Below, piece after piece: positions 1,560 to 28,407 of a stretch of DNA of 64,000 nucleotides. Location of the stretch: NCBI RefSeq assembly GCF_023101685.1, contig NZ_CP082164.1, positions 8,060,001-8,124,000 on the forward strand, given 5' to 3'. Origin of the DNA: Bradyrhizobium sp. 186. Its GTDB lineage: Bacteria > Pseudomonadota > Alphaproteobacteria > Rhizobiales > Xanthobacteraceae. The translations under genes and the position numbers were made by a program. The notes under the pieces were generated by a model, which saw nothing but the letters and a program-made list of their open reading frames with translations, was not told the DNA's origin and made no database searches. The first letter of the stretch is position 1. Each line of letters begins with the position of its first letter.

Positions 1560-1706
1560 GGCTTTAAACGACAAGGTGAGAAGGAGTGTTGACGACGTCC
1601 CTCCTGACCCGCCCAGTCAAGCTGTAGCCAAGCATTTTGCGACGGGGCGGCGATTGAGAAAAGGCACCCAGACGCTGCGACCCAATGTCCGTTAATGAGA
1701 TGGTCC

Positions 1707-1743
1707 GGCCGTGCTCCGGCCCTGCCAGCACGACAAGCTGGCA
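1707..1743 (+). repeat. Tandem hairpins just upstream of the IS110 transposase
   Basis: Positions 1707-1711 pair with 1717-1721 (GGCCG with CGGCC, 5-base loop). Positions 1723-1729 pair perfectly with 1737-1743 (TGCCAGC with GCTGGCA, 7-base loop). Both stems lie in the leader within 65 bases of the transposase ATG. They could hold down translation of the transposase or belong to a structured element RNA. Both roles are inferred. Confidence 0.45.
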
Positions 1744-1769
1744 AGGGGCGCCCAAGACAGGAGCACGCC

Positions 1770-2834
1770 ATGTCTCAGAAACTCAGCTCAGCGATCGCCG
1801 TGATAGGCATCGATATCGGCAAGAACTCGTTCCACATCGTGGGCCACGATCAGCGCGGCGCAATCGTGCTGCGGCAGAAGTGGTCACGCGGCCAGGTAGA
1901 AGCACGGCTCGCCAACCTGCCAGCGTGCTTAATCGGTATGGAGGCCTGCGTCGGCGCGCATCATCTCAGTCGCAAGCTCCAAATGCTCGGCCACGACGCC
2001 CGACTGATGCCCGCGAAATACGTGCGCCCCTATTCGAAGGGACAGAAGAATGACTTCCGTGATGCGGAAGCCATCGCCGAGGCTGTCCAACGCCCGACCA
2101 TGAAGTTCGTCGCGACCAAGACCGCCGACCAGCTCGACCTGCAGGCGCTGCACCGCGTGCGCGAGCGATTGGTCGGTCAGCGTACCGGCGTCATCAATCA
2201 GATCCGTGCGTTCCTGCTGGAGCGGGGCATCGCCGTGCGGCAAGGCCTGCGTTCGCTGCGGTCCGAGTTGCCGGGTATTCTCGCGACGCGCACCGATGTC
2301 CTCGCGCCTCGCATGTTGCGCATCATCGAGGACCTGGCAGGAGACTGGCGCCGACTGGACGCGCGCATTGAGGACCTCTCCAGCGAGATCGAAGCATTGG
2401 CTCGTCAAGACAAAGGCTGCGAGCGACTGATGACGGTCCCGGGCATCGGCCCGATCATCTCGAGCGCGATGGTAGCCGCGATCGGCACTGGAGACGTGTT
2501 CTCGAAAGGCCGCGACTTCGGCGCCTGGCTTGGACTGGTGCCGAAGCAGATATCGACAGGCGACCGCACGATCCTCGGCAAGATATCAAGGCGCGGCAAT
2601 CGCTACCTGCGCGTTCTGTTCGTGCAAGCCGCGTGGGTTGTGCTGGTCAAGGTAAAGTGTTGGGAGCGCTATGGCCTCAAATCTTGGATCGAAGCCGCCA
2701 AGAAACGATTGCACCACAACGTGCTGGCGATTGCGCTCGCCAACAAGCTCGCCCGCATCGCCTGGGCGGTTCTCAACAAGGGGCGCGCCTTCGAGTGCGT
2801 CAAGACAGATGAGATGGCGTCCCGACCTGCTTGA
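1770..2834 (+). CDS. IS110-family transposase (DEDD recombinase)
   Basis: The 354-residue protein starts at the ATG at 1770, which follows a Shine-Dalgarno-like ACAGGAG; the frame also opens further upstream, but that part reads through the element leader. The N-terminal half is the RuvC-like DEDD domain, with GIDIGKNSFH near residue 14, GMEAC near 57 and DFRDAEAI near 93. The C-terminal half is the Transposase_20 domain, with the helix-hairpin-helix-like VPGIGPIISSAM near 229 and the downstream GxRTILGKISRRGN region carrying the conserved serine neighbourhood. The length is typical and no frameshift is seen, so the enzyme may be active. Family members recombine element and target using a structured guide RNA from the element's own non-coding end. 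Confidence 0.93.
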   Translation: MSQKLSSAIAVIGIDIGKNSFHIVGHDQRGAIVLRQKWSRGQVEARLANLPACLIGMEACVGAHHLSRKLQMLGHDARLMPAKYVRPYSKGQKNDFRDAEAIAEAVQRPTMKFVATKTADQLDLQALHRVRERLVGQRTGVINQIRAFLLERGIAVRQGLRSLRSELPGILATRTDVLAPRMLRIIEDLAGDWRRLDARIEDLSSEIEALARQDKGCERLMTVPGIGPIISSAMVAAIGTGDVFSKGRDFGAWLGLVPKQISTGDRTILGKISRRGNRYLRVLFVQAAWVVLVKVKCWERYGLKSWIEAAKKRLHHNVLAIALANKLARIAWAVLNKGRAFECVKTDEMASRPA

Positions 2835-2844
2835 TCCTCGCGCC

Positions 2845-2935
2845 GTGCTCGGGGCCGTCAAGGCGCAGCCTGGCAGCGGTCGAGCAAGCCGTCAGGACAG
2901 CACGACGGCCGGCCTTGACGGCCCTTGCGCGCGGC
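2845..2935 (+). ncRNA. Candidate bridge-RNA segment of the IS110/IS1111-type element
   Basis: Just after the transposase stop, GGGCCGTCAAGGC at 2852-2864 is perfectly complementary to GCCTTGACGGCCC at 2912-2924. This gives a 13-base-pair stem around a 47-base loop that itself contains short complementary segments. A folded RNA at this place matches the IS1111-group layout, where the bridge RNA is encoded downstream of the recombinase. No promoter or expression evidence is visible. The fold is seen in the sequence, and the RNA identity is inferred. Confidence 0.35.
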
Positions 2936-3000
2936 GCGTCTGCGCGCGCAGGCCGGGACGAAGGAACGACCGCCAGGCACGAACAAAGGAACAGTGCGAA

Positions 3001-3636
3001 GTGAGGAGCTATCGATGACGTAACCAACATCCCTTACCCGCCGAGGTCTGCGAGAGGATGAGACGACGATGGAGAATCGGTCTTCCCGGCGCATGCGAAC
3101 ACGGGTGACCCGAATGGCCCCTTCGAGGCCTGTCCGCTAATTAGCTCGAATGCGCGCCGATATCCATGATGGCCCGGAGCACAACACGCTCCAATCAGAG
3201 GCCGGATACATTGATGCAAGACCGCATCTGCCAGGTTGACGAAACCTCTTGCAACGCGCGGCCGGACCATACATTTGGGTCACAGGCTGACTTCGACAAC
3301 CTGCATGACCTGGTTCGCTTATCTCCTGAAAGCAAGAAATTGCAGCCCTCTGAGCAGAGGTCAGCCACGGGCCAACAGGCGACGTTCGTTAGCCGGCACG
3401 GCGACCGTCAGAGAAAGGCCACTCTGCTGCCGGTCCCCGAAGGCCATCTCGGGAGATGGCGAAGATTATTTCTACCTGCCCTGCGGTAGCCTTAAGGCCT
3501 TCGTTGGATATTGACTCGCCTCTTGCGGCACGGACGATCTGGCAGCAGCTTTCACAGGTCAAGTAGGTACCGGCGGACAATGATTTCTGTTGTTGTCGGG
3601 TCACGACAGCATGCCGGTTGACCTACGATCTCTACG
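3001..3636. other. Intergenic DNA without a supported gene
   Basis: Several short frames exist on both strands, such as the one at 3166-3489. None has a good ribosome-binding site or a protein-like composition. The stretch probably holds the right end of the IS110 element and the promoter of the GH17 gene. Nothing else is recognised. Confidence 0.45.
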
Positions 3637-5250
3637 TTGGAGGGTCGAACTATTTCGCTTCGCACGCCTCTGGCGCTTCTCATCATATCCCTAGGTGCGA
3701 TCGCCGCGGTGTGGTGGTGGCTGGCCATACCGATCAACTTGGCGCGCGCACCGATCGATCCGAATGCCAAACTGCAATGCATATCCTACGCGCCCTTCCG
3801 CAACAACCAAACGTCAGAGTCGCCGACACCAGTGCCGCGGGACCAGATCGCGGAAGATCTCGCCCAGCTTGCCAAAATAACCGACTGTATCCGTACCTAT
3901 GCGACTGATCTTGGTCTCGATCAGATCCCCGAACTTGCGTCCAAGGTGGGGCTGAAAGTCATTCAGGGAATTTGGCTCGATAGGGACCGACAGAAGAACG
4001 CGACGCAGATATCCACGGGCATACGCCTCGCCCAGCAATATCCGGAAACCATCACCGCACTCGTGGTCGGCAATGAGGTTCTGTTGCATCGGAAGATGAC
4101 GCCTTCCGACCTTGCTGCCTTAATCCGCTCGGTCAAGGCACAAGTGCCGGTCCCCGTCACCTATTCCGACGTCTGGGAGTACTGGCTGCGCTATCGGGAA
4201 CTCGATGACGCCGTCGATTTCGTCACCGTTCATATCCTGCCATATTGGGAAAATGTCCCGGTCCCGGCGAAATCTGCCGCTGCTCACGTCGACGCCGTCC
4301 GAAAGCAGGTGGCGTCGGCGTTTCCGGGCAAGGAAATCCTGATTGGAGAAACTGGTTGGCCGAGCGAAGGGCGGATGCGCGATTCGGCGCTACCGTCGCG
4401 CACCAATCAGGCGCGGGTGATCTCGGAGGTCCTCGATGTTGCCCGGCGCGAGAATTTCCGCGTCAACCTGTTCGAGGCGTATGATGAATTGTGGAAGCAT
4501 GAGTTCGAGGGCACCGTCGGCGGATCGTGGGGCTTATTCGATTCCGCGCAGCGCACGCTGAAATATCCGCCCGGCATCCCCGTCAGCAATTATCCGCTCT
4601 GGAAACTGCAAATGAGCAGCGGAATGGCGCTGGCGATCCTGGTGTTCGGCGCTGCATGGCTGACCTCGCGCCGGAAGCCCTCGCAGCCCCGGCTCGTCTC
4701 ATGGTTTGCGGTCGGAATATCGGCAACCACCGCCGGAGTCCTGTTTGGGGTGGCCGCTCAAAAGATGTTCTATGAAAGCTACGACGCGGGCAGCTGGCTT
4801 CTGTGGGGCGCACTTCTGGTGGCGGCAACTGCCTCGCCGCTGTTCGGCGCCAACGCCCTGATGTCCGGGCGCGCACCGCCCACATTTCTGGAATTGCTGG
4901 GTCCGAAGGACTACCGGACCCCATCGGGGCTGGCGATCATGCACGGATTGATCTTGATCGTAACCATCGTGATCGGCACGGAGACCGCGCTGGGCTTTAT
5001 GTTTGACCCGCGCGAAAAGGATTTTCCTTTTGCGGCCCTCACTATGGCGGCGGTCCCTTTTGCGGCTATGACGCAGCTCAATCGCCCCAAGAAAGGAATC
5101 CGCCCCATGGCGGAAGCGATATTTGCCGGCGTATTCTTGGTGGCAGCCATCTATGCGGCGCTTAGCGAAGGGCCGGACAATTGGCAGTCGCTGTGGACTT
5201 GTGCTGCCTATATACTGCTTGCGGTTACGCTGTGGCGGGCGCGCGCTTGA
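3637..5250 (+). CDS. Membrane-bound glycoside hydrolase family 17 / beta-(1,6)-glucan synthase-like protein (NdvC type)
   Basis: The protein has about 537 residues: one N-terminal membrane anchor (about residues 8-30), a periplasmic GH17 barrel (about 45-325) and seven C-terminal membrane spans. The GH17 acid/base and nucleophile glutamates are visible as Glu147 in VVGNEV and Glu238 in GETGWPSEG. In Bradyrhizobium the related NdvC is needed for beta-1,6 linkages in cyclic beta-(1,3)/(1,6)-glucans, so this enzyme may act as a transglycosylase rather than a hydrolase. NdvB is not in the window, so this is probably a paralogue rather than ndvC itself. The start is uncertain: the frame opens with TTG at 3637, but GGAGGG at 3639-3644 would suit a start a few codons later. 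Confidence 0.85.
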   Translation: MEGRTISLRTPLALLIISLGAIAAVWWWLAIPINLARAPIDPNAKLQCISYAPFRNNQTSESPTPVPRDQIAEDLAQLAKITDCIRTYATDLGLDQIPELASKVGLKVIQGIWLDRDRQKNATQISTGIRLAQQYPETITALVVGNEVLLHRKMTPSDLAALIRSVKAQVPVPVTYSDVWEYWLRYRELDDAVDFVTVHILPYWENVPVPAKSAAAHVDAVRKQVASAFPGKEILIGETGWPSEGRMRDSALPSRTNQARVISEVLDVARRENFRVNLFEAYDELWKHEFEGTVGGSWGLFDSAQRTLKYPPGIPVSNYPLWKLQMSSGMALAILVFGAAWLTSRRKPSQPRLVSWFAVGISATTAGVLFGVAAQKMFYESYDAGSWLLWGALLVAATASPLFGANALMSGRAPPTFLELLGPKDYRTPSGLAIMHGLILIVTIVIGTETALGFMFDPREKDFPFAALTMAAVPFAAMTQLNRPKKGIRPMAEAIFAGVFLVAAIYAALSEGPDNWQSLWTCAAYILLAVTLWRARA

Positions 5251-5356
5251 GAAAACCTGGCCAGCCGACTTCCGTTAATGGGTCAATCGCGTCATTTTGG
5301 CCGTGGGCTAACCACCTCCGGTTTGCCCCCAGCTCCGGACATCTCGCTGCACCGCG

Positions 5357-6292
5357 CTAAGTGACGTGATGGGCCAACGATCGGGATAGGGGGGAGCCTT
5401 GCGGCTCCACCCCTCCCACACCACCGTACGTACGGGTCCGTATACGGCGGTTCGAGAAGTTACGCTGACGCGCTTCGATCAAGGACAGGAACCCGAGCGA
5501 TTTGAAGTGGGCATTGGAGAGTCCAACAGAGAGGGCTTTGCTCCGGGCGAGGTGCCAGGGTCCACGGCCGCTACCGGCCATGTTGCGCAATTCCCCCGAG
5601 ACTCCCAGCGCGATGAGTGCTGCTCGACGACGTCCTGGTGTTTTCCATTGGCGCCAAAGAGCGGCCCGCAATCGCAAGCGGACCCAACGAGTGAGGGCGA
5701 TCAACACCTCGGGCGTTTCGCAGAAGCCGAAATAGCCACGCCAGCCCCGCATATACTTGGCCAGTTCCTCCATTGTCGTCTTGATGCTGACGCCCTTGGC
5801 CCTTCGCGTAGTATCTCGGATTCGCTGCTTGAACCGTTCCAGCGATTTCGGCGCGATCGTGCGCTTGATGCATGGACCAGCCGTGAAGCTGAACCCGAGG
5901 AACTTTCGTTCCTGCGGTCGTGCCACCGCACTCTTCGCCTCATTCACCTTGAGCTTGAGCTTTTGTGTGATGAAGCGCGAGATGCTCTCCATCACCCGCT
6001 GACCCGCGCGTTCGCTGCGAACGTAGATGTTGCAGTCGTCCGCATAACGGACAAAGCGGTGTCCCCGGTGCTCCAGTTCGCGGTCGAGTTCGTCGAGTAC
6101 GAGGTTACTTAGCAGTGGCGAAAGCGGTCCTCCTTGCGGAGTTCCTTCCACGCTGGGGCTGACCAGTCCGTTCTCCATCACCCCGGCATTCAGGAATGCC
6201 CGGATGAGCTTCAACAGCCGCTTGTCCCCGACGCGCTTGGCGATCTGGCCCATCAGTTTGTCGTGATTGACTCGATCAAAGGAAGCGGCCAC
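5357..6292 (-). pseudogene. ltrA: Group II intron reverse transcriptase/maturase, N-terminally truncated
   Basis: The remaining 311 codons begin within reverse transcriptase motif 3 (FDRVNHDKL) and include the GTPQGGPLSPLLSN motif, the YADD catalytic box near residue 83, the domain X maturase region and the group II C-terminal domain. Roughly the first 100 or more residues are absent. The GTG at 6292 is only the first available start after the breakpoint and is unlikely to be used. The frame runs through the domain V/VI RNA and stops 23 bases past the intron end. What remains has no frameshift, so the truncation appears fairly recent. Confidence 0.8.
5380..6285 (-). mobile_element. Group II intron, 5'-truncated fragment
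   Basis: On the minus strand the fragment carries the 3' two thirds of the maturase frame. After it come a domain V-like hairpin near 5425-5460 (arms ACCGCCGTA and TACGGTGGT, one G-U pair) and a domain VI-like hairpin with GGAGCC-GCAA-GGCTCC. It ends with the typical CCTATCCCGAT at 5380. The intron 5' half, including RNA domains I-III and the first part of the reverse transcriptase, is missing. The break lies around 6281-6290. Without domain I the intron cannot splice on its own. Confidence 0.75.
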
Positions 6293-6798
6293 AGACTACC
6301 CATCACCGTGATATTCCAGATTCGCTGACCATCACCCGCGAGCGCCACGCCTTCGAAGGCCAGTCGCTGGCCGTGATCAGCAGCATCCGGCGGCGCGGCG
6401 TCCTCCTCGTTCTCGTGGTCTTGCCAGACGGTAGCCGCTCGCTGATTCCGGCCAACTGGACCGATTGGAACGCCGAGCAGGCAAGGCGAACGCCGGCGAA
6501 CGATGCTGGTGGTGCCCACGATCTCGGCCGGCTTGGCGATTTGCTCCACCTGCGCAAGATCATTGACGCTCTCTACGACCGACCCGTCGAGTCGGTGCAG
6601 TGCAAGGAGAGCAACCATGCAACTGAACCTGGCCTTTCTCGACCGCCCCGATCTTCCACCGAACCCCTTTCCAGCAGCCCCGTCGGCGACGGCGTGGGAG
6701 CAGCTCGACGAAGCCTCGCGCGTCGCAGCGCTCGAGATCCTCGCACGTCTCATCGCCCGCATGATCTCGGCCAGGTCGACGAGGGAGGCAAGCGATGA
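6293..6798 (+). pseudogene. DUF5372-like protein, 5'-truncated
   Basis: The frame reads in from the breakpoint with the intron. It contains the segments ITRERHAFEGQSL, LVLPDGSRSLIP and NWTDWN, which resemble the DUF5372 proteins found upstream of serine-recombinase modules in rhizobia. No start codon lies ahead of the conserved part, so the 5' end is lost. The frame runs on to 6798 and overlaps the next small gene, as in intact versions of the module as I recall them. The function of the family is unknown. Confidence 0.5.
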
Positions 6799-6802
6799 AT
6801 GA
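6617..6802 (+). CDS. Small accessory protein of a recombinase module
   Basis: The product has 61 residues, starts at ATG 6617 behind AAGGAGAG, and is an acidic then helical peptide (LDEASRVAALEILARLI near residues 33-49). Small proteins of this kind sit between a DUF5372 gene and a large serine recombinase in many rhizobial elements. Here it overlaps the remaining recombinase start by 8 bases, which suggests coupled translation in the original element. The gene itself is complete, but both neighbours are broken, so it is probably a relic. Its function is unknown. Confidence 0.5.
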   Translation: MQLNLAFLDRPDLPPNPFPAAPSATAWEQLDEASRVAALEILARLIARMISARSTREASDE

Positions 6803-6851
6803 ACGCGCCAAGATCACGGCCAGCCATCTGTCCCGCCAGGCCATCGTCTAA
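6795..6851 (+). pseudogene. Remnant start of a site-specific (serine) recombinase
   Basis: Only 18 codons remain (MNERAKITASHLSRQAIV, then a stop). The peptide matches the start of the resolvase-type recombinases that follow the DUF5372/small-protein pair, where the next residues are usually YVRQS. After the codon for Val the DNA changes to IS1182 sequence, and the stop at 6849-6851 comes from that junction. Confidence 0.5.
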
Positions 6852-7999
6852 CCGGGCAGTTGGCGCCGGACTTCAAGACCATCGCGGATTTCCGCAAGGA
6901 GAATGGCAAGGCCATTCGTGAGGTCTGCCGCGAGTTCGTCGCGCTGTGCCGCAAGCTTGACCTGCTTGTTGCAGCGAGCGTCGCCATCGATGGGTCGAAG
7001 TTCAAGGCCGTCAATGCGCGGGACAAGAACTTCACTGAGGCGAAGATGAAGCGACGGCTGGAGCGGATCGACGAGAGCATCGCCCGGTATCTCTCGCAGC
7101 TCGAGACCGCCGATCGGCATGGCGATGCAGTGCCAGAGGCGAAAGTTGCGAGGTTGAAGGGCAAGATCGAGAAGCTCAAGGAGGAGATCGTCCGGCTCAA
7201 CGCGATCAATGCGGAGATGATGAAGAGCGAGGACAAGCAGATCTCGCTGACCGATCCTGACGCGCGCTCGATGGCGACGAGTGGCAAGGACACCGGGATC
7301 GTTGGCTATAACGTGCAGATCGCAGTTGATACGCAGCATCATCTCATCGTGGCTCACGAGGTGACCAACGTGGGCACCGATCGCCACCAACTCGCCAACA
7401 TGGCTAGGCAGGCTCGCGACGAGATGGCTGTCGAGACACTAGAAGTCGTGGCAGACCGCGGCTATTACGATGGAGAGGAGATCAGGGCCTGCGAGGAAGC
7501 CGACATCACGGTGACGTTGCCGAAGCCGATGACTTCGGGCGCCAAAGCTGCTGGCCGCTTCGGCAAACAGGACTTCGTCTATGTCGCCGCCGACGATGTT
7601 TATCGCTGTCCCGCCGGCGAGCGGCTAACCTATCACTATACGAACGTAGAGGATGGAAAGACACTGCGCCGCTATTGGACGAGCACCTGCAAAACCTGCG
7701 CGCTCAAAGCTCAGTGCACGACAGCCCCCGAGCGCCGCATCTCACGCTGGGAGCACGAGGCCGTTCTGGAGAAAGTTCAGGATCGGCTCCATCACAACCC
7801 CAATGCAATGGGTGTCCGCCGTCAGACAGCGGAGCATCCGTTCGGCACGATGAAGTGTTGGATGGGAGCAACGCACTTTCTCACGAAAAAGCTACCAAAG
7901 GTGGCCACCGAGATGGCGCTCAACGTGCTCGCCTACAACATGAAGCGCGTGATGATGATCGTGGGCGTAGGTGGATTGCTGGAGGCGATGCAGGCGTGA
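6848..7999 (+). pseudogene. IS1182-family transposase, N-terminally truncated
   Basis: The frame enters as LTGQLAPDFKTIADFR, which lies internally in full-length IS1182 transposases of about 450-480 residues. It therefore lacks roughly the first 90-100 residues. The rest is intact: the DDE-type catalytic region with IDGSKFKAVN (residue 43 on), the coiled insert, DPDARSM, VADRGYYDGEEI, a zinc-like CPAGE...CKTC..KAQC cluster, and HPFGTMKCWMG near the C-terminus. The TTG at 6860 is the first start in frame and probably is not functional. The gene is fused at its 5' side to the recombinase remnant, which marks a deletion or one-ended recombination. Confidence 0.85.
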
Positions 8000-8314
8000 G
8001 GCCGGCCGCTGCGCGACCAAATCAGCGCCTACACGGAGCTCCTGGTTGCCAGGGAGATGACCGGAGGTCGATTCCACCGAATTAGAAGCTCGACGGCCGC
8101 GAAATGCGCCGTGGCGCCCCAAGTTGCGCGATTTTCACACGGCCTGGGCCCTAAGGCGAAGTACGGCGGGATCTGAAATCGTCTGCTTATCGGGGTAGAC
8201 CGGTGACCGGACAACTGCCAAAGCGTCGCTTTTGACCCATTCTCGGAAGTAGGCCCTAGTCTAGTCCAGCAGCGGCCCGATATGCTTTGATGCGTGGGGC
8301 TGGAACTGAGACGC
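8000..8314. other. Non-coding stretch after the IS1182 fragment
   Basis: The first part, to about 8150, resembles the 3' non-coding end of an IS1182-type element. The rest has no supported gene. No clear terminal inverted repeat can be paired because the left end of the element is missing. Confidence 0.4.
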
Positions 8315-8326
8315 ATGGGTGGCCTC

Positions 8327-8629
8327 ATGTACATAGTCATTCGAAAGTACACCAAGGTTCGTTCGGTTGCGGATGCTGCCCGTCGCGCCAAAAGCGGCAT
8401 CGGTCAGATCCTAAGGGAATCGCACGGTTTCAGATCTTATTATGTACTGGACGGGGGCGAAGGCGTCGGTGTCGCTGTGATGATATTCGAGGACCGCGAA
8501 AGCGCCATTGCCGCGAACGATAAAGTACTGAAGTTTGTTCAAGCAAGCCTGCTTGACCTTAATCTTGGAGACCCCGAAATCATCGCCGGGGAAGTTTTGG
8601 TTGATATGAATATAGAATCTGATGCGTAA
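8327..8629 (+). CDS. Small ABM-like (dimeric alpha/beta barrel) hypothetical protein
   Basis: About 100 residues start at MYIVIRKY; an ATG four codons upstream at 8315 is also possible. The pattern of a beta strand (YIVIRKY), a helix (SVADAARRA), GFRSYYVLD, a strand (VGVAVMIFED) and a helix with A-x-AAN is that of the small ferredoxin-like fold seen in antibiotic-biosynthesis-monooxygenase-type proteins. Similar small proteins are common in Bradyrhizobium and usually have no assigned role. No catalytic residues can be named. It stands alone between mobile-element remains. Confidence 0.65.
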   Translation: MYIVIRKYTKVRSVADAARRAKSGIGQILRESHGFRSYYVLDGGEGVGVAVMIFEDRESAIAANDKVLKFVQASLLDLNLGDPEIIAGEVLVDMNIESDA

Positions 8630-8859
8630 TTGTTTGCAAAAAAGGGTACTCATCCGCTACGAGCACAAGCACGGCGTCGAGCGGCGGCCGTAGCGTTCGC
8701 CAACAAGAAAAGTCGTGTTCACTTTGACCTTTGCGCGTGAACGCAAGGTCTTCACTCAGAAAACTGTCCAGAGGGGTGCACGCGCGATCTCGCCTATTGG
8801 CGGCGGGCTCAATTGGTCAGCGCAACACTCTAATCTTTTAGCAAAGATGGAGTGTGGAC

Positions 8860-9250
8860 ATGAAACGGCGAAGTCGCATTTATTACTCGGCAGCCCAGCG
8901 ATCCGAAATCTGGGATCGCTGGCAGGCCGGCGAGCCGATGAGCTCGATCGGACGCCGATTTGACCGGCAGTCCTCGTCGGTCTTCTCCGTGATCTCGCCG
9001 ACCGGCGGAATTCGTCCTCCAGATAGGCACCGTGCCAAACAGGCGCTCAGCCTGACTGAACGAGAGGAGATCTCTCGATGGCTCAGCATGCGCTGCTCGT
9101 TGCGGTCGATCGCGCGCCACCTGGGACGATCTCCATCAACCGTCAGCCGTGAAGTCCAGCGCAATGGCGGGGGCCAGAGCGCTATCGGGCTGCGGGGTCC
9201 GATCAGGCCGCGTGGGATCGGGCGCGGGCGCCCCAAGCTTTGCAAGCTGG
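8860..9250 (+). pseudogene. IS30-family transposase, frameshifted and truncated
   Basis: The N-terminal helix-turn-helix part is intact from ATG 8860: MKRRSRIYYSAAQRSEIW, then LTEREEISRWL and the diagnostic SPSTVSREVQRNGG near residue 95. Just after this the frame shifts (a YRAAGSDQAAWDRA segment lies in another frame), and recognisable IS30 sequence stops near 9250. The DDE catalytic domain is gone. Confidence 0.75.
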
Positions 9251-9439
9251 CTTGCCGTCCGTTCTTGAGGCGGACAGTATCGACCTTGCTTCAGCGGCAA
9301 TGGACGATGAACACCGAGATGCCAAGGCCGAGTACTGCTTGTTGGTCTCCCTGAGTGCTTTTTCCAAGGCGTAGCGGCGATGGAGGTTCAGGACGACCTG
9401 CTTCCAGTTCTGTTAGCGATCAAATTTTCCAGAACAGCA

Positions 9440-9867: not shown

Positions 9868-10119
9868 TTATGAACGCCCTTCTTGGTTTCGAATGCGAAC
9901 CCCAGCTCCTCCACCGTTTTCAGGAATCAGCACAATCCCAGCCAGTTCCAGCGCTTGCTGCATCTTGCTCACAGCCTCCTCCGAAACGGCACGACGGTCT
10001 CGCTCGAAATCGACCACAGTTGAGAGACCGACTTTCGCGGAAGCCGCCAACTGGGGTTGCGTCATGTCCAACAGGGCCCGGGCAGCGCGGCATTGAGAGG
10101 GAGACATGGGTTTCAACAT
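9868..10119 (-). CDS. XRE-family transcriptional regulator, probable repressor
   Basis: The protein has 83 residues from ATG 10119, or 79 from ATG 10107. It has the small alphaproteobacterial Cro/CI-type layout: QCRAARALLDMTQPQLAASAKVGLSTVVDFERDRR forms the helix-turn-helix, followed by a helix and the ending GIVLIPENGGGAGVRI. The upstream start has AAGGAC at a longish distance; the downstream start has no ribosome-binding site. It lies divergently from the YqaJ-ERF operon. Two identical 17-bp palindromes fill the space between them, one covering the regulator's own start codon, so repression of the recombination genes and of itself is likely. Related regulators bind such palindromes as dimers. 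The effector is unknown. Confidence 0.88.
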   Translation of the reverse strand: MLKPMSPSQCRAARALLDMTQPQLAASAKVGLSTVVDFERDRRAVSEEAVSKMQQALELAGIVLIPENGGGAGVRIRNQEGRS

Positions 10120-10129
10120 TTTATGTTGA
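10113..10129. promoter_or_regulatory. Operator 1: perfect palindrome TCAACAT-TTT-ATGTTGA
   Basis: The two 7-base arms are exact reverse complements around TTT. The site overlaps the -35 box of the YqaJ promoter and the ATG of the regulator. It is identical to operator 2, whose start lies 39 bases away. Confidence 0.8.
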
Positions 10130-10154
10130 CAGTCCTTTTCGGGTGGCTTAATCA
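10126..10154 (+). promoter_or_regulatory. Sigma-70-type promoter for the YqaJ-ERF operon
   Basis: TTGACA at 10126-10131 matches the -35 consensus fully. TAATCA at 10149-10154 is a fair -10 box at the ideal 17-base spacing. Operator 1 overlaps the -35 and operator 2 overlaps the -10 and start point, so a bound repressor would block polymerase. The leader to the GTG start would be about 30 bases. Confidence 0.65.
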
Positions 10155-10168
10155 ACATTTTATGTTGA
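10152..10168. promoter_or_regulatory. Operator 2: perfect palindrome TCAACAT-TTT-ATGTTGA
   Basis: This is an exact copy of operator 1. It covers the end of the -10 box and the expected transcription start of the YqaJ gene. Confidence 0.8.
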
Positions 10169-10192
10169 TGACATTCAAGAAAGGAAAGTGCC

Positions 10193-11026
10193 GTGATTCT
10201 TAACCAAAAGCCCCAGAATTTTGCTTCGGAGCGAAAGTCCTTTATCGGCGGATCCGACGCCCGGATCATCATGGGAGACGACCAGGACAGGCTCATCCGG
10301 CTATGGCGCGAGAAGCGCGGCGAGCTCGCACCTCAGGACCTAAGCCAAGAACTGATCGTCCAGCTCGGCAGCATCACCGAGGACCTCAACCGGACCTGGT
10401 ACGAGCGCAACAGCGGCCACAGGGTCGAAGACGTCCAGCGAAAGGTCCGGCACCCCATTCACAAATGGATGGGCGCAACACTTGACGGCCGCGTTGAGCA
10501 GACCGGAGCTGTATTCGAAGCCAAGTTCATGCTGCCCTGGAATTTTTCCGAGGAGGCAGCGGCCGGCAAACATATGGCCCAGCTTCAACACAACATGTGG
10601 GTGATCGCGGCGCGCTCGGCTGTGCTCTCCATCATCACAGGCGGCGGCAAGTGGGTTGAGATCACGGTCCATGCCGACCCGCTCTATCAGCATCTGCTTT
10701 TGACTGCCGAGAAGAAGTTCTGGCGGTGCGTCCAGACCGGCGAGCCACCTCACCTGTTTGGTATCGAGACGCCCCGTCCGCGGCTCGAAGCCAACAAGGT
10801 CGTCGATATGGGCTCATCCAACTCCTGGGCTGACCTTGCGGCGACGTACCTCCGCACCCGGGCTGCACACGGAGATCACGAACTCGCAAAGGCTGAACTG
10901 AAGAAGCTCGTGCCTGAGGACGCGAAGGAAGCAACCGGCCACGGCCTCAAGGCCAAGCGCTCAAAATCGGGCGCCATTAGCTTCGAAGCCCTTTCCATGG
11001 AGGTCGTTCATGCACCGGTCCAGTGA
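10193..11026 (+). CDS. YqaJ/lambda-exonuclease-type recombinase nuclease
   Basis: The 277-residue protein starts with GTG behind AAGGAAAG. It has the YqaJ family signature [12 protein letters not shown] (residues 17-28), Glu63 in [12 protein letters not shown], and the PD-(D/E)xK core with Asp98 in GATLDGRV and Glu109-x-Lys111 in FEAKF. In phages such enzymes resect one strand of double-stranded DNA ends and hand the single strand to an annealing protein. The next gene is an ERF-type annealer overlapping by 17 bases, so the two form a complete Red-like pair. Expression is probably held down by the divergent XRE regulator. The C-terminal third (after about residue 200) is less conserved and basic. 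Confidence 0.88.
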
Positions 11027-12281
11027 GCGCATTGGAGCAATTGCCGCAGCCCTGGCCAAGGCGCAGGCAGAGCTGACCAATCCTGAGAAAACCCTTACCG
11101 CCACGATCCGCTCGCCCTTTCCCAGGGAGGAGGACCGGACCTTCCGGTACGCTTCGCTTGCCAGTGGGCTGGATATCGTCCGCAAGACGCTAAGCCAGCA
11201 GGAGATTGCTACGGTGCAGACGACCCGCACTGAGGTCAACACGGGGCAGATCCACCTTACGACCCTCCTTGCTCATTCGTCGGGGGAATGGATCTCATCT
11301 GACCTACCGGTCTGCGCCAGTAAGGATGTCGAGGCGCCGCATCGAATGGGGGCGGCACTGACCTATGCTCGACGCTACGCCCTCTTTGCCCTTGTTGGGA
11401 TTACCGGAGAGGACGACCTGGACGCGCCGGATGTAGTGGCCGGATCTGCACCGAGCCGCGAACCCCAACCGGTCCCTGTCGCGAAAGGAAAGCCCAATAG
11501 GGTCATCCTGAACCGCGTCTCGATGCTGCAGCCCGAAGCATCTGCCGAACTTCGAGCACGGCTCCTTCAAGAATTGGAGAGCCTGATGGGCAGCGAGGGC
11601 CTGTTGGGCTGGGCGAGGGTCAGTCTACCTCTGAAGAATACCCTCGTGGAGGCGGACGCAAGAATCATCGAAGTCGCCTACCAGAAGAGACTCGACGCGG
11701 TCGCCTCCTCGCAAACCGATGCTGTCGCGGAAGCGGTGGCTGCTGATCTGGAGCAGAAGGTAGTCAGCACGCCTCACTTGGCGGCTCGCGCCGATGGCCA
11801 GGCGGAGCACGAACATCCCTTCAACACGGGCATAGAGACCGGCGGCGTTGCCTTTCCCAAAGAGCTTCCTCGGAAGAGAAGCAAGGAGCACCTGTTATTC
11901 GTCCGGAGCCAGCCCTGTCTTGTTTGCAAGCAAAGCCCCACCGACGCGCACCACCTGAAATTTGCCCAAGCGAGGGCTTTAGGCCGGAAGGTGAGCGACG
12001 AGTTCACTGTTCCTCTTTGCCGCCCGCATCATCAGGAGTTGCATCGCCATGGCAATGAAAGGGCTTGGTGGGCCAACGTGCAAATTGCACCTTTGCCCAT
12101 CGCCAACGAATTGTGGAGGGCAAGTCCTATCCGCGGCATCAATAGCGAGGATGGGTTAGGCGGCGCGACAGCTCACCCTCCACCCAGTTCACACACTCAC
12201 CCAGTCGTTGGCTCGAGCTCCAAAAATGCGTCGAGTTCCGCAGCGAGCGCGTCCTCCCAGGCAGATGGCACTATGCCGTAA
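11010..12281 (+). CDS. ERF-family single-strand annealing protein fused to a C-terminal HNH domain
   Basis: The product has 423 residues and starts inside the end of the exonuclease gene, suggesting coupled translation. Residues about 5-145 are the ERF domain: [33 protein letters not shown], and [18 protein letters not shown]...DD. ERF proteins anneal complementary single strands. Residues about 295-355 form a treble-clef zinc/HNH-like domain with Cys303, Cys306, His314-His315, Cys337, His340-His341 and His345, as in phage DUF968-type nucleases. The fusion is unusual: recombination proteins of this family normally end after the ERF core and a variable tail. The last 28 codons run antisense into the rfbD 3' end, so the original C-terminus may have been lost or altered at the island boundary near 12,190. 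Confidence 0.82.
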
Positions 12282-13105
12282 GCAACCTTAAGTCGAGTCA
12301 GGTCCAGGTGGGAGTTGGCTGGACGAGTAGCCTTGGTTGGGTAGTCCTTAGTGACGATCGGGACCACCTCGGCTGCCTTCAGGGCCGCGCCCCGGGACCG
12401 CAGACCCTCCACAATCGCGCTGGCAAAGCCGTGCCAACTGGTCGAACCGGAATTGGTCAGGTGGATGAGCCCCTTTGCCTGGGCGAAGACCGCGTCCAAG
12501 TCTGCCTCGCCTTTCCGCAAGATCTGAACAAGCGTAGACGCAATCGTGTGCGCGGTGGTCGGCGTTCCGAGCTGATCCGAGACCACCCGCAGCGACTCGC
12601 GCTCCTTGGCGAGACGGATAATGGTGCGCATGAAATTCGCGCCTTGCGCGGCGTAGACCCAGGCGGTTCGCACCACCAGATGCGCTCCACCTGCGCTGCG
12701 AACCGCGGTCTCGCCTGCAAGCTTGCTGCGGCCGTAGACCGAGAGCGGGCCCGTTGGATCGTCCTCGCGCCACAAGCGACCGTCGCTGCCGTCGAACACA
12801 TAATCCGTCGAGAAATGGACCATCGGCACACCGTGTGCTGCGGCCCAACGGGCGAGAGCGGCCGGCGCGTCACCGTTGATCACGAAGGCGAGTGCAGCCT
12901 CGTCTTCGGCCTTGTCGACGGCGGTATAGGCCGCGGGGTTGATGATGAGATCGGGCTTGAACGCATCGAGCTTGCTGGCCAGAGTGTCTGGCTTCGACAA
13001 GTCGAACTCCTCAAGCGGCGGCGCAAGGACGGTATGCTGGTCTCGCAGCAGGGGCAGCAGTGCACCACCCACCTGGCCTGCAGTTCCGGTCAAGAGGATC
13101 CGCAT
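12197..13105 (-). CDS. rfbD: dTDP-4-dehydrorhamnose reductase
   Basis: The 302-residue NADPH-dependent short-chain reductase makes the last step of dTDP-L-rhamnose synthesis. It shows [10 protein letters not shown] at the N-terminal nucleotide-binding loop, [21 protein letters not shown] and the catalytic YGRSK. The ATG at 13105 shares a base with the rfbC stop (TGATG), so the two are translationally coupled; a longer upstream frame would run into rfbC and is rejected. The 3' end overlaps the convergent ERF gene by 85 bases. Confidence 0.95.
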
Positions 13106-13656
13106 CAGACTTGCCCGTAAATCGGAAGGTTCTTGACGTCGGCGAGCAGCGGAGCAGCCGCGTCCTTTGCCGAAAGCGATGGGCTTTCGACGCCCCATTT
13201 GATCCCGATTGCGGGGTCATTCCAGCGGATGGAGACCTCGTCCTTCGGGCTGTAGATGTCATCGCATTTGTAGAAGAAATCGGCCGTTTCGGAGAGGACG
13301 ACAAAGCCATGGGCGAAGCCGCGGGGCACCCACAGCTGGCGGTTCTCTTCGCTCAATTCAACGGCAACATGCCGCCCAAAATTCGGGCTGCCGACCCGGA
13401 CGTCGACCGCGACGTCGAGCACGCTGCCGCGCAGCGCACTGACCAGCTTGCCCTGGGTGCCCGGATTTTGCAGATGCAGCCCACGCAGCACGCCGCGGGC
13501 CGAGCGGGACATGTTGTCCTGAACGAAAGGACGATGTATGCCCGCTTCTACGTAACGTTGAAACTGGTAGGTTTCCAAAAAGAAACCCCGCTGGTCCCCG
13601 AATAATTTTGGCTCGATAATCAGGACTTCCGGAAGCTCGGTCGCAATAACATTCAT
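13105..13656 (-). CDS. rfbC: dTDP-4-dehydrorhamnose 3,5-epimerase
   Basis: The 183-residue cupin epimerase acts between RfbB and RfbD. It has the expected length and motifs: FGDQRGFFLETY, RGLHLQ with the catalytic His, VPRGFAHGF, and YKCDDIYSP. It is the first gene of a two-gene minus-strand operon with rfbD and is divergent from rfbA across a 110-base spacer that must hold both promoters. Confidence 0.96.
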   Translation of the reverse strand: MNVIATELPEVLIIEPKLFGDQRGFFLETYQFQRYVEAGIHRPFVQDNMSRSARGVLRGLHLQNPGTQGKLVSALRGSVLDVAVDVRVGSPNFGRHVAVELSEENRQLWVPRGFAHGFVVLSETADFFYKCDDIYSPKDEVSIRWNDPAIGIKWGVESPSLSAKDAAAPLLADVKNLPIYGQV

Positions 13657-13766
13657 ATTCAGCGCCTAAATATTCCTGGCGTTCTACGGTTTACCCTAGA
13701 TTGATAACAAACTTGTGCAGTGCACGCTATCTGCTACTTTCCGAATAGTAAATTTTGTGAGGGGCT

Positions 13767-14642
13767 ATGAAGGGGATCATTCTCGCCGGCGGTACGGGCT
13801 CGCGCCTTTATCCGGTGACCACGGTGGTATCGAAGCAGCTGCTGCCGGTGTTCGACAAGCCGATGATCTACTACCCGCTGTCGACGCTGATGTTGGCGGG
13901 AATCCGGGACATCCTCATCATCTCGACTCCGCAGGACAAGCCGCTATTCCAGCGGTTGCTTGGCGACGGCTCGGGCATCGGCCTGCGATTTGAGTATGCG
14001 ACCCAGGAGACCCCGCGTGGGCTCGCGGACGCCTTCATCGTCGGGCGGGAGTTTGTCGGCACCGATTCGGTCGCGCTGATCCTGGGCGACAACATCTTCT
14101 ACGGCCACGGCCTGCCGAGCATGCTGTCGAGCGCCTCGTTCCGCAAGAAAGGCGCGACGGTGTTTGGCTATGTCGTCAACGAACCCGAGCAATATGGTGT
14201 TGTCGAGCTGGACGCGACCGGCCGCGCGCTGTCGATCGAGGAGAAGCCGAAGCAGCCGAAATCCAACGTTGCGGTGACCGGGCTCTATTTCTACGACAAC
14301 GACGTGCTGGACATCGCCGCCAACGTAAAGCCGTCGGCGCGCGGCGAGATCGAGATCACATCCGTCAACAACGCCTATCTCGAGCGCGGCGACCTTTTTG
14401 TCGAGGTGCTTGGCCGCGGTTTTGCATGGCTCGACACCGGCACCCACGCCTCATTGGTGGAGGCCAGCCACTTCGTGCAGATCCTGGAGCAGCGCCAGGG
14501 CCTGCGCATCGCCTGCCCCGAGGAGATTGCGCTTCGGCAAGGTTATATTTCGCTGCAGCAATTCGAGATTGTCGCCGAAAAGTCTGCCAAGAGCAGCTAT
14601 GGCGAATATCTGAAATCGGTGGCGCGCTCCTTCGCGCGCTGA
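13767..14642 (+). CDS. rfbA: Glucose-1-phosphate thymidylyltransferase
   Basis: The 291-residue nucleotidyltransferase makes dTDP-glucose from dTTP and glucose 1-phosphate, the entry step to dTDP-rhamnose. Visible motifs are [11 protein letters not shown] at the N-terminus, [17 protein letters not shown], and FAWLDTGTH. The ATG follows GAGGGG. The rfbB start lies 19 bases after its stop, so the two form an operon opposite to rfbCD. Confidence 0.96.
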
Positions 14643-14661
14643 TTCATTGGCGGGGGCACGC

Positions 14662-15729
14662 ATGCGCTTCAAGGGTTCCACGATCTTCGTCACCGGCGGC
14701 GCCGGCTTCATCGGCTCGGCCGTGGTGCGGCACCTGCTCCGCGATACCCACGCGCGGGTCGTCAACATCGACAAGCTGACCTACGCCGCCAATCTCGACT
14801 CGCTGCCGGGCGCGACAGGCAACCCGCACTACACCTTCGAGCAGCAGTGCATCTGCGAGGGGGCAGGCCTGCGAAAGCTGTTCGAGAAGTACCAGCCCGA
14901 CGCGGTGATGAATCTGGCCGCCGAGAGCCATGTCGACCGCTCGATCGACGGCCCCGGCGAGTTCATCCAGACCAACATCGTCGGCACCTTCACCATCCTC
15001 CAGGAGGCGCTGCGCCACTGGCGCTCGCTCGCCGGCGAGAAGCGCGAGCGCTTCCGCTTCCTGCACATCTCGACCGACGAGGTGTTCGGCTCGCTCAGCG
15101 ACGACGGCCTGTTCACGGAGACCAGCCCTTACGCGCCGAACTCGCCCTATTCGGCGAGCAAGGCTTCGTCCGACCACCTGGTGCGCGCCTGGCGGGAGAC
15201 CTATGAGCTGCCGACCCTGGTGACCAACTGCTCCAACAATTACGGGCCGTATCACTTCCCGGAGAAGCTGATCCCGCACATGATCATCAAGGGCCTCGCC
15301 GGCGAGAAGCTGCCCGTCTATGGCGACGGCAAGAACATCCGCGACTGGCTGTTCGTCGAGGACCACGCCCGCGCCTTGAGCCTGGTGCTGGAGCACGGGC
15401 AGCTAGGGGAGACCTACAATGTCGGCGGCCGCAACGAGCGCAGCAACCTGCATGTGGTGGAGACGATCTGCGACCTGCTGGATGACCTCGCCCCGACCGC
15501 GGACGGTCCGCACCGCGGCCTGATCTCCTTCGTCACCGATCGCCCCGGCCACGACCGCCGCTACGCCATCGACGCCTCAAAGCTCGAGCGCGAGCTTGGC
15601 TGGCGGGCGGAGGAGAACTTCGAGACCGGGATCGAGAAGACGGTGCGCTGGTATACCGAGCAGAAGCCGTGGTGGCAGGCCATCGTGGAGCGGGGGTATC
15701 AGGTCACGCGGGTGGGGTTGAGCAAATAA
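14662..15729 (+). CDS. rfbB: dTDP-glucose 4,6-dehydratase
   Basis: The protein has 355 residues from ATG 14662, which follows GCGGGGG; a TTG five codons upstream is less likely. It is an extended short-chain dehydrogenase with [12 protein letters not shown] for NAD binding, [10 protein letters not shown], the active-site STDEVFGSL and [10 protein letters not shown], and YNVGGRNE. It converts dTDP-glucose to the 4-keto-6-deoxy intermediate. A second, decayed copy of its 3' end lies at 17,419-17,586. Confidence 0.96.
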
Positions 15730-22763: not shown

Positions 22764-25700
22764 TTAGATTTTCTCGAATGCGATAACCGGGGCAAACGAG
22801 TACTCAACTGCCTTACTAGAAAATTGGATGTCAGGTAACGCCTTGAAGCCCGACTTCTCCATCTTTTCGAGTAAGAGGTACTTCCATTCCTTGAACAATT
22901 GGGAATCCGTTTCCGCAATTTGAACGAGAGCCGTTCCTCCTTTCACCATCAAACGATTCAGCTCCTTTACAATCAGTGACAGCTGGTCTCGGTCTGATTG
23001 CCCCAATCGGACAAGTGATAAGTGGAATGTTCCCGGCCGATTGGGAAGACGGCCTTTAGACCGGAGCTCGGAGATCAAACTTTCGATCGTCAGGCGCGGT
23101 CCCTGAAATTGCCGCGCCCACTCTTTCTCAAGTCCGCCAGTCAATCCAGCGGCGAGAGCCGGTAGGCGCCGATACATCAGGATGCCATCACTCAACCATC
23201 TGTAAACCGAGCGATCTTCGGGCAAGGCCTCGCAGGACGGACACTTCGCCCCTTCTGCGAAGGCAGGCCCATGCCAGTCACAGAGATTGCAATGCTTCAA
23301 CTTTCCGTTGGCTACTGCATCATACCGCTCGAGCTCGTCAGGAAGCACCGGATGAGCCACCACCAACGACTCGTCGAACCTCTGCGAAAGTGTGGGACGG
23401 CTCTTGTTAAAGAGCGCGAGCATGCCTGGCACATTTGCAAGTTTCCAGCCCTTGCTCTCGGCATAATAGCTGTATTCTACATCCGTATAGCTGTGCGGCA
23501 CGTCGGCGCTGAATCCTCCAATCTCGGCAACCATCTTGCGCCTCATGCCGAACAAACCGCCTTGGACGTGACCGAAAATCCGCGCGGGGTTCTTGGTCGC
23601 GAAGTCCTTGTTCCGGAACTTGTCAAACAGTTCGATGCCGGTCGGATATTGTGAACCGTACAGATAGGTCGGCGAATAACCAATCGTACCGACCAGGCCG
23701 ACATCCGGCTGCTCTTCCAAGGCATGCACGATTGGGATCTCCCACCCGCGCGTAAAGCTAACGCCTTCCCTGCCGCAGACATAAACGGCATAATCGCCGT
23801 CGCCTTGCGCCAGAGCAGCATTTGTGCCGGGGCCAACCATGGCATTGACGTTATTGTGGATGACAGTGACGCGGTCGTGCTCTCGCCAGAGGCTATCCAG
23901 ATACTCCGCAACAGGCTCGCGCCTGCTTTGGTTGTCACAGACGATCAAGTGATACGGGAGCGAAGTGTTTTCCACTATCCTCCGAACGACCATTTTCAAT
24001 TCGTCAAGGTTGTTCCAAGCCACGATCACTAGATCGACGGTCTGATTCCGCCAAACTCGCATCAGCACTCGTGTGAGCCGGGCAACATCGTGTCGCTCCC
24101 GCGCGCGGGCGGCGGCCGCCCTGATGATCGCGCGCACCTTCAAGGTGGGCATACCGTAGAATCGGCGAATAGCTTCGGCCAGCGCCTCCGGCGTCGGCTC
24201 GGCCACTATTCCTGTGACCTCATCAACAACTAGATCCGGTATCCCGGCGACGTTGGTCGTGAGCACCGGCACGCCTGCCGCCATGCTCTCGACTACCGAG
24301 GTCGGAATCCCGTCCATGTCACCGTTCTCGGTTCGCACCGACGGTGCCGCAAACAGATCCGCGGTCTTCATCGTCTCGATGACCTGGTCCTGCGTCAACT
24401 GGCCTTTGATCTCGACATTGGTGGCGCCCGTCTCTGCAATGAGGCGGCGGTACTCATCCTCCATATCTCCGTAGCCATAGAGCTCCACCTTCACCCCAAG
24501 ATCCGCAACCAATGGCGCCGCGCGGATGAGAAGATCGAGCCCCTTCTTTTTCACGAACCGATGGACTGCGACAATCTTCTTTGTTGTCCTGTTCTGCCTC
24601 TCTTCATCGTAGGCGGCTGAGAAGCGCCTCGTGTCGACGGCATTCGGGTTGATGATGACCTTTCCACGCGGGAATCCCCGCTCGACCACGTAGTTCAGAT
24701 GGAACCTGGACAGCGTGAACAGCGCACGACACCACCTGGATGCCCCAATCTCCGCGAGACGATTTTTCTTATCATTGTCGTGACGGAATATGTCCTGGGC
24801 ATGCGCAATGAACGTGAACGGGATTTCCGCCTCTTCACACGCCGGCCAAACCATGTCCGTCACAACGGGATAGACGAAGTGGGCATGAACAATTGTCCGC
24901 CCTGTTTCCTTCAGCCGCTTCGCGAGTTGTTTGGGTGAATCGACTCGTTCAAACGTAATGGGAAAGGATGGCTTGAAGTCCTTCCAGGGTATTTGACGGC
25001 AAAAGACAAGAACATCCGCTCCGGAGGCGACGAGCGCCTCCAATTCGTTCAAAACAAACGTTTCGGATGGCACAGGAAAATGCCAACAGAAGTACGCAAT
25101 CCGCGGTCGATCCTCCCGCACTTTGAGTGTTGGATTGCGTGCCGGTCGTACGACAGGACTGGCCGAACTGATCCGTACGTCCTTGGGCGGGAGGATATGG
25201 GAGTAGGCTTCAGCAACTCGCTTCCGGTAGCTTGGAAGGCCAAATCTGGAAACGGCTATTCTTCTGCCACGCTCTCCGAACTGCTTTATCGCTTCTGGCT
25301 GATCGCAGAGATGTTCAATAAACGGTAGCGCATCCTCCACCTTCTTGAAGGGCACGAGATAACCGCTCTTCTTGTGCTCCACCAGTTCCGGAAGCGCTCC
25401 CCATCGGTAAGCGATGACGGGCCGCCTTGCGGCCATTGCTTCCAACACAGTCCGGCCGAACGATTCAGCAAAATGCGAGAAGTTTAGAACAACGTTGACC
25501 TGCTCAACTGCCTGCCTTGGGCTCGCTGCATAACCGGCAAACACAACATTGTCAGGTACACCCCCAACCTTCTGCTCTTCCTTGAGCTGTTTGACCAAAT
25601 CCGTATCTGGGCCGATGATGACAAACTTTGCATTCTTGACGCGTCCGGACGCCAATCGAGCTAATTCGATAACGTCCGAAATTCCCTTCTTTGGCACGTT

Positions 25701-28205: not shown

Positions 28206-28407
28206 TTTCAATCCACATACAGCGCGTCAGTTAGTGCTTCGTGGCGTAGCTCTCACATCTACACGTCCCGTTACATAATAGCGTGGTGCCACTACGAGGC
28301 CATGAAGACTCTGACCGAATCTGCCTACAGCGCAGCCCTCGACTGCCTGAAATAAAGTCTGCTTGCTTAACGGAGCCTCGGCTGCTCCAACGGCCAACAT
28401 GCGGATA

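Follow-up and report, generated by a model that had tools for sequence, protein, structure and literature searches.

A small recombination module lies in the 64,000-nucleotide stretch of contig NZ_CP082164.1 of Bradyrhizobium sp. 186 analysed here (positions 8,060,001 to 8,124,000; hereafter the window): a divergent gene for a repressor-like XRE protein faces an operon coding for a YqaJ/RecE-like exonuclease (exo) and an ERF annealer, and two identical operators lie between them (Table 1). We consider, with a probability of roughly 0.7, that this module is an autonomous phage-derived recombination cassette whose expression would be governed by an exchangeable XRE/operator switch. A first-pass annotation had described the divergent gene and the operon, two exact 17-bp palindromes on the −35 and on the −10/start, and a 17-base overlap of the nuclease and annealer genes. 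All of this was borne out by direct reading, by the list of open reading frames (ORFs) and by family matches (gene overlap at 11010-11026), and supports a Red/RecET-like exonuclease-annealer pair with a divergent repressor-like gene and predicted cognate twin operators. The HNH/DUF968 domain fused to the C-terminus of the annealer was absent from that annotation.

Twin operators between the XRE gene and exo

The operator, TCAACATTTTATGTTGA, is a 17-bp inverted repeat with 7-bp arms and a TTT centre, and its two copies are 39 bp apart. Both putative promoter hexamers of exo, with 17 bases between them, overlap an operator arm. At up to three mismatches these were the only two operator sites in the window (each seen on both strands), a count equalled in 0 of 100 shuffled windows, and at up to two mismatches they were the only ones in the 10.77-Mb genome of the strain, which led us to reject a genome-wide XRE regulon. 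A reversed control pattern at the same stringency also gave two sites in this genome, scattered, so that the signal is the pairing at one place and not the number of sites. A consensus promoter had been claimed here as well: the arrangement TTGACA-N17-TAATCA is exact, but its consensus quality was overstated, since the −10 agrees with TATAAT at two of six positions and a sigma-70 scan called no promoter there. Support for the promoter comes instead from the hexamer spacing kept in relatives.

A lack of the palindromes next to homologous operons had been named beforehand as one of the outcomes on which the proposal could fail; instead, they proved to be conserved there in a scan of 265 Bradyrhizobium genomes (this strain included): the exact operator occurs in 8 copies, all 8 adjoining XRE/exo, and in the five other genomes that hold it the position is the same. 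With one mismatch allowed, the count was 12 sites in 8 genomes. Ten of them, in 6 genomes, are flanked by XRE and exo; G201 and G286, in which no exo match was seen, contribute one site each, both with one mismatch. For the reversed control pattern the scan found 6 sites, each in a different genome. Among the six loci whose XRE is of the same recognition-helix type as that of the window (T1, see below), five keep TTGA-N17-TAATCA/TATCAA with both hexamers touching operator arms, as judged by eye; in the sixth (G266) the spacer has 12 bases.

Exchange of control units upstream of exo

An exo match (E <= 1e-20) was present in 102 of the 265 genomes. Loci returned by the searches were combined with regions chosen from the match list, which gives a sample that is neither exhaustive nor random; matches were kept only if they began by residue 30, were at least 80 residues long and had at least 150 bases upstream. 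The resulting 137 instances were reduced to 123 by removal of duplicates, and their control type was scored by a hidden Markov model (XRE) or a sequence pattern (leader). Sixty of the 123 upstream regions contain a divergent XRE gene, opposite in strand to exo in all 60, another 60 contain a conserved leader, none contains both, and three contain neither (L140, L222, and L181, which has a degenerate leader). Leader and XRE are separated by only 3 changes among 116 labelled rows. In one large clade the XRE/operator control appears to be replaced by the exo leader.

In order to compare specificities, the 60 XREs were sorted by recognition helix into 12 types, a grouping defined by us. Similarity of the intergenic regions tracks XRE identity (partial Mantel r 0.60, 0/2000 permutations) and not exo identity (r 0.04, 145/2000). 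As judged from the sequences, XREs sharing a recognition helix share their putative operators, and these appear to remain matched to their own XRE across diverged copies. Twin palindromes were found at 17 of 60 XRE loci against 0.15 expected, in a stretch widened and with criteria changed because the first, narrower test (16/60 against 0.3 expected) had cut off operator 1 of type T7. They occur in T1 (4/6), T7 (7/10), T3 (2/3), T5 (2/8) and T11 (1/1); in T7 the twin layout resembles that of T1, with repeats that are ATACTTTTAGTAT-like or ATAGAATTTCTAT at a distance of 33-37 bp.

The recombination genes cohere separately: over the 56 of 60 XRE loci that have ERF in its place, the correlation of identities is r 0.74 between exo and ERF, 0.21 between XRE and exo (0/2000) and 0.17 between XRE and ERF (3/2000). 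Types are also scrambled against exo, since 59 XRE-type rows of 11 types required 38 changes on the exo tree (shuffled mean 40.4; 28/200 as low). Since specificity and operator co-vary and exo/ERF cohere apart from them, the XRE and its operators are best read as one control unit, exchanged like a phage immunity region and largely independently of exo/ERF.

The sequences point to such exchange also at syntenic loci. At the rml site, T1 in the window and a leader in G007 occupy the same neighbourhood; the rml genes (window 12286-15721) are 86.5% identical to those of G007, where the block adjoins that genome's own exo-ERF copy, and exo-ERF is 77.5% identical. An aldose-epimerase-like region carries T4 in G245, T6 in G239 and G021, and a leader in G017, where the flanking order differs from the others. 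In this last genome (L048:3717-12624) the block stands between a start piece of the aldose-epimerase-like gene and a second copy, 73% identical, and looks as if it had been inserted in that gene with replacement.

The leader comprises about 120 nucleotides before exo, strongly conserved in alignments of 12 and 49 rows. A 10-bp helix is predicted, in which CCGGTATCTC pairs with GAGATACCGG, and the latter contains the exo Shine-Dalgarno site. In the sequence alignment of 49 rows, 88.9% of helix cells pair and 16 cells are changed on both sides (shuffled mean 4.2, 0/500); the number of pair types was reached by 90 of 500 shuffles. A model-fitted alignment of 66 distinct rows, which leans towards structure and in which related rows inflate counts, gave 92.6% paired cells and 25 both-side changes (shuffled mean 6.0, slid controls 1-4). 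A single position accounts for 14 of these changes, chiefly from A-U to C-G, and one of the outer pairs of the helix is not kept in 20 of the 66 rows. For these rows RNAalifold predicted 13 pairs, two of them with compensatory change. The covariation suggests that the leader probably hides the exo Shine-Dalgarno site and would act on translation.

The leader model had 49 matches spread over 35 of 146 genus genomes and further ones in 4 of 198 family-drawn genomes, three of these from the same genus, so that among the genomes searched the leader is nearly confined to Bradyrhizobium; it had no match in the window or in 17 other loci. Rfam searches of L046, L048 and L034 found nothing at the leader itself, and three weak matches elsewhere were below gathering scores. 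The idea of an autonomous riboswitch was discarded: of ten unusual matches looked at individually, eight stand immediately before exo or fragments of it, the one in L182 has pieces of exo in its vicinity but not right behind it, and the one in L180 has no exo. Bradyrhizobium sp. 186 carries a leader copy of its own at G000:C1:3430068-3430190 (L046:10068-10190, minus strand), before a paralogous exo-ERF operon.

Genes and genomic setting of the cassettes

Features of the module are collected in Table 1. The XRE has a second, sub-threshold match to HTH_31 in the Pfam profile search, and an in-frame ATG at 10119, inside operator 1, is an alternative start for it (M-L-[KE] in five of six T1 loci). 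A D...E-x-K motif, which we take to be catalytic, is present in 109 of 118 members of the exo family, and the HNH motif C..C-D.HH-C..HH is kept in 134 of 137 aligned stretches spanning the domain. The 3' end of the annealer ORF (12197-12281) is antisense to the 3' end of rmlD; relatives mostly align only to about aa 370-390, with a few reaching aa 398-408, and the terminal part of the ORF is junction sequence.

Table 1. Features of the recombination module and its right-hand neighbour (window coordinates; aa, amino acids)
Feature	Position	Strand	Evidence or remark
XRE repressor gene, 79 aa, type T1, recognition helix GLSTVVDFE (putative repressor)	9868..10107	-	HTH_3 E 3.5e-6
Operator 1, inverted repeat (predicted)	10113..10129		overlaps putative exo -35; at XRE gene start
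Putative exo -35, TTGACA	10126..10131	+	sequence; TTGA + 17-bp spacing in 5/6 T1 loci
Putative exo -10, TAATCA	10149..10154	+	sequence; weak, 2/6 matches to TATAAT
Operator 2, identical copy (predicted)	10152..10168		overlaps putative -10/start region
YqaJ/RecE-like exonuclease (exo), 277 aa, GTG start	10193..11026	+	PF09588 1.4e-13; phrog_434 RecE-like 4.1e-37
ERF annealer with fused C-terminal HNH/DUF968	11010..12281	+	PF04404 3.9e-17; PF06147 2.6e-13
HNH/DUF968 domain of annealer, aa 283-347	11856..12050	+	profile and PHROG matches
rmlD, convergent neighbour, right edge of module	12197..13198	-	PF04321

The module had been placed outside any recognisable prophage, and the wider context agrees with this. 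Comparison of 49 window ORFs with PHROGs matched 28 families; among the 25 of them listed there was no capsid, tail, portal, terminase or integrase, and they include sugar-nucleotide enzymes, ABC transporters, transposases, a reverse transcriptase and two ParA-like proteins. Queries for terminase, a ParB-type methylase and DUF5681 had no match in the window. In loci of about 16-20 kb, each of the three was found in 0 of 20 of the XRE type and 0 of 20 random loci, and in 4, 5 and 4, respectively, of 6 leader-type loci; a shorter XRE-type locus, L035, is the exception in having a terminase. Near 16 repressor-type copies, the 25 commonest of 77 families included no structural phage family. Where the upstream stretch measured 1.4 kb or more, a terminase lay within 3.5 kb in at least 1/58 XRE against at least 15/58 leader regions, and a third gene up to 3 kb downstream in at least 12/58 against at least 47/58, these being lower bounds because many stretches end sooner; the window copy has no such third gene.

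Similar architectures were found on IMG/VR contigs, in 27 and 49 rows. A terminase was present in 34 of 54 fetched rows, and an XRE in many of the 54, in a set selected for viral hallmarks and with four contigs counted twice. A block of ParB/N6_N4 methylase, DUF5681 and terminase large subunit precedes exo-ERF in L048:5222-8444, L051, L052 and many IMG/VR contigs (L266-L319), and together with exo-ERF it is possibly a satellite-like element. Two families without a Pfam match recur beside exo-ERF operons (L046:7389-8039 and L046:11061-11474), one downstream of ERF and the other divergent upstream with an STGPK motif. Two other origins were considered and rejected: 23 plasmid records match, none covering 80% of the annealer, and the 352 matching records of isolated phages all stay under 60% identity, with no match extending over 80% of the query. 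A third exo-ERF copy of the same genome, at G000:C1:8044832-8046645 (L045), about 24 kb before the module, is broken: its exo match begins at residue 120 and contains a stop.

The window copy lies beside rml genes, and nucleotide-sugar families lead the Pfam tally near 16 XRE loci (Epimerase in 8 of 141 neighbouring ORFs); they are not among the 25 commonest families in 137 (of 300 picked) ORFs from 20 random loci. Nine polysaccharide queries (rml, UDP-glucose dehydrogenase, epimerase and glycosyltransferase sequences, six of them from the window) matched 7/20 XRE, 3/6 leader and 0/20 random loci (Fisher 0.004 for XRE, 0.0013 for both together), and the six window-derived ones 5/20, 2/6 and 0/20 (Fisher 0.024 and 0.012), with the window not counted, the loci non-random and the full set weaker than a subset of 16 XRE and 5 leader loci. 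Polysaccharide genes are thus commoner near the sampled cassette copies than at random loci.

Elsewhere in the window, the left flank (1695-9354) is rich in insertion sequences, with an IS110-type transposase (1695-2834), a DDE transposase (6860-7999), a group II intron reverse transcriptase fragment (5357-6292) and a helix-turn-helix transposase-like fragment (8854-9354). An ORF of 1815 aa at 22764-28211 (minus strand) seems by eye to consist of several joined glycosyltransferase domains.

Proposed mode of action and known systems

In a sequence comparison with solved structures, the XRE came closest to C.Kpn2I (4yba; E 4.8e-8 over residues 1-76), and a designed protein (E 0.001) was the one further match. 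The fold of the XRE was predicted with a pLDDT (predicted local distance difference test) of 90.6 using 41 aligned sequences, and poorly without alignment (pLDDT 57). The two chains of 4yba were the sole fold matches of 538 at E <= 0.001 (TM score 0.77-0.78 by query length, E 1.9e-5); C.BclI, C.AhdI and C.Esp1396I matched more weakly (E 0.009-0.05), and P22 c2 and other phage repressors ranked lower (E above 0.01). The predicted model of this small XRE has the fold of a restriction-modification controller. No restriction-modification gene pair is present beside it, the adjacent operon being exo/ERF-HNH. According to PMC6237814, C.Kpn2I represses a promoter facing away from its own, probably by covering the −35, and at its own gene it forms a roadblock. 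The XRE resembles C.Kpn2I in size, sequence, predicted fold and divergent arrangement, and its predicted operator 1 has a similar position, over part of the −35 of the promoter under control and at the start of the XRE gene; it differs in that its adjacent operon codes for recombination and not for restriction and modification.

We infer that a dimer of this C.Kpn2I-like XRE would bind the two identical operators, that the bound protein would block RNA polymerase at the exo −35 and −10, and that at operator 1 it would throttle its own gene. A repressor-free state, such as that just after DNA entry into a new cell, would allow exonuclease, annealer and HNH nuclease to be made in a burst: the exonuclease would resect a double-strand end, ERF would anneal the single strand to homologous DNA, and the HNH domain would cut an intermediate, until the accumulating repressor closed the exo-ERF operon again. 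Two considerations favour such a zygotic burst: nothing in the switch looks like a sensor of DNA damage, and controllers with the C.Kpn2I-type fold serve to time gene expression, as the abstract of a paper on C.Csp231I also states.

Several points weigh against the reading of the module as an autonomous cassette with an exchangeable switch. The burst is argued by analogy; the −10 of exo is poor; and in G266 a degenerate second operator stands beside a truncated exo. Twin palindromes are scarce in T6 (1/12) and absent from T2 (0/10), T4 (0/4), T8 (0/2) and T9 (0/2), as well as from T10 and T12 (0/1 each), and the type limits were set by us, T6 and T7 being broad. The XRE is not wholly independent of exo, as the above r of 0.21 indicates. 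On the exo tree, in which 14 of 56 branches are well supported and the bootstrap had not settled, T1 shows mild clustering (4 changes, 2/500 shuffles as low). Among fetched copies in six multi-copy genomes, XRE pairs of the same type numbered 1 of 18 against 2.15 expected (P 0.35), so that within-genome diversity does not support an immunity grouping; this was dropped as a proof of immunity.

The module could instead be what is left of a lysogen, a switch and recombination genes of a decayed prophage with no present use. The phage-type gene families, the terminase adjoining many IMG/VR relatives, the broken third copy in the same genome and the missing third gene at the window copy would all fit such a remnant. 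Yet the XRE, exo and ERF-HNH frames of the window are open with motifs intact, both operators are perfect, exo matches are spread over the genus, structural phage families are missing from the commonest neighbours of repressor-type copies, and operators seem to stay matched to their XRE in diverged copies; we regard a remnant as rather unlikely. Besides possible help to nearby mobile elements in recombining, the first-pass annotation had also suggested a cassette induced by DNA damage, and phage exo/annealer operons are indeed often under RecA-sensitive repressors. Induction by damage was not supported: the XRE matches HTH_3 only, and profiles and the predicted fold show, over its 79 aa, a helix-turn-helix and a short beta hairpin with no peptidase or self-cleavage domain, for which reason its identity as an SOS repressor was rejected. 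Its best structural match is moreover a restriction-modification controller and not CI or LexA, and induction of SOS type seems very improbable. Activation of exo from one operator and repression from the other, in the manner of classical C proteins, would agree with the fixed spacing of the two operators and with the weaker fold matches to C proteins. Both operators, however, overlap the −35 and −10 themselves, an arrangement that suits repression, and the closest kin, C.Kpn2I, is described in PMC6237814 as inhibitor and roadblock; we find a timing switch of this kind hard to favour.

Extending the reading of an autonomous cassette to the whole genus, we tentatively suggest that stand-alone exo and ERF-HNH cassettes, selfish or domesticated, may form immunity groups, with control units exchanged in place (drawn from roughly twelve XRE/operator specificities, or consisting of the new structured leader RNA), a preference for surface-polysaccharide loci, and transient expression triggered by entry that might drive allelic exchange of those loci. 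This offers a testable link between phage-derived recombinases and the exchange of surface-polysaccharide genes in legume symbionts, and the set yields ready-made candidate pairs of matched repressors and operators besides a candidate regulatory RNA.

No published account of this cassette was among the matches listed in the open-licence literature. With Lambda Red, RecET and the SXT Exo-Bet pair it shares adjacent, overlapping exonuclease and annealer genes and a nuclease of YqaJ/RecE type; it differs in its ERF-type annealer with a fused HNH/DUF968 domain and in its own small repressor. The SXT pair, on an integrative element, is functional according to PMC3118119, whereas no integrase family was among the 25 of 28 listed for the window. 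The P22 Erf system has the ERF family domain in common with the cassette, which differs from it in the fused nuclease domain, the partner genes and the control. Immunity-type switching is known from temperate phages, and in lambdoid immunity regions, as here, a repressor and its cognate operators are exchanged as a block and the recombination genes stay; the cassette differs in having no recognisable phage, a single small helix-turn-helix repressor and an immunity that is only predicted. The immunity-like pattern seen here, with its many operator specificities and the apparent replacement of a protein control by an RNA, concerns chromosomal recombination genes mostly outside recognisable prophages.

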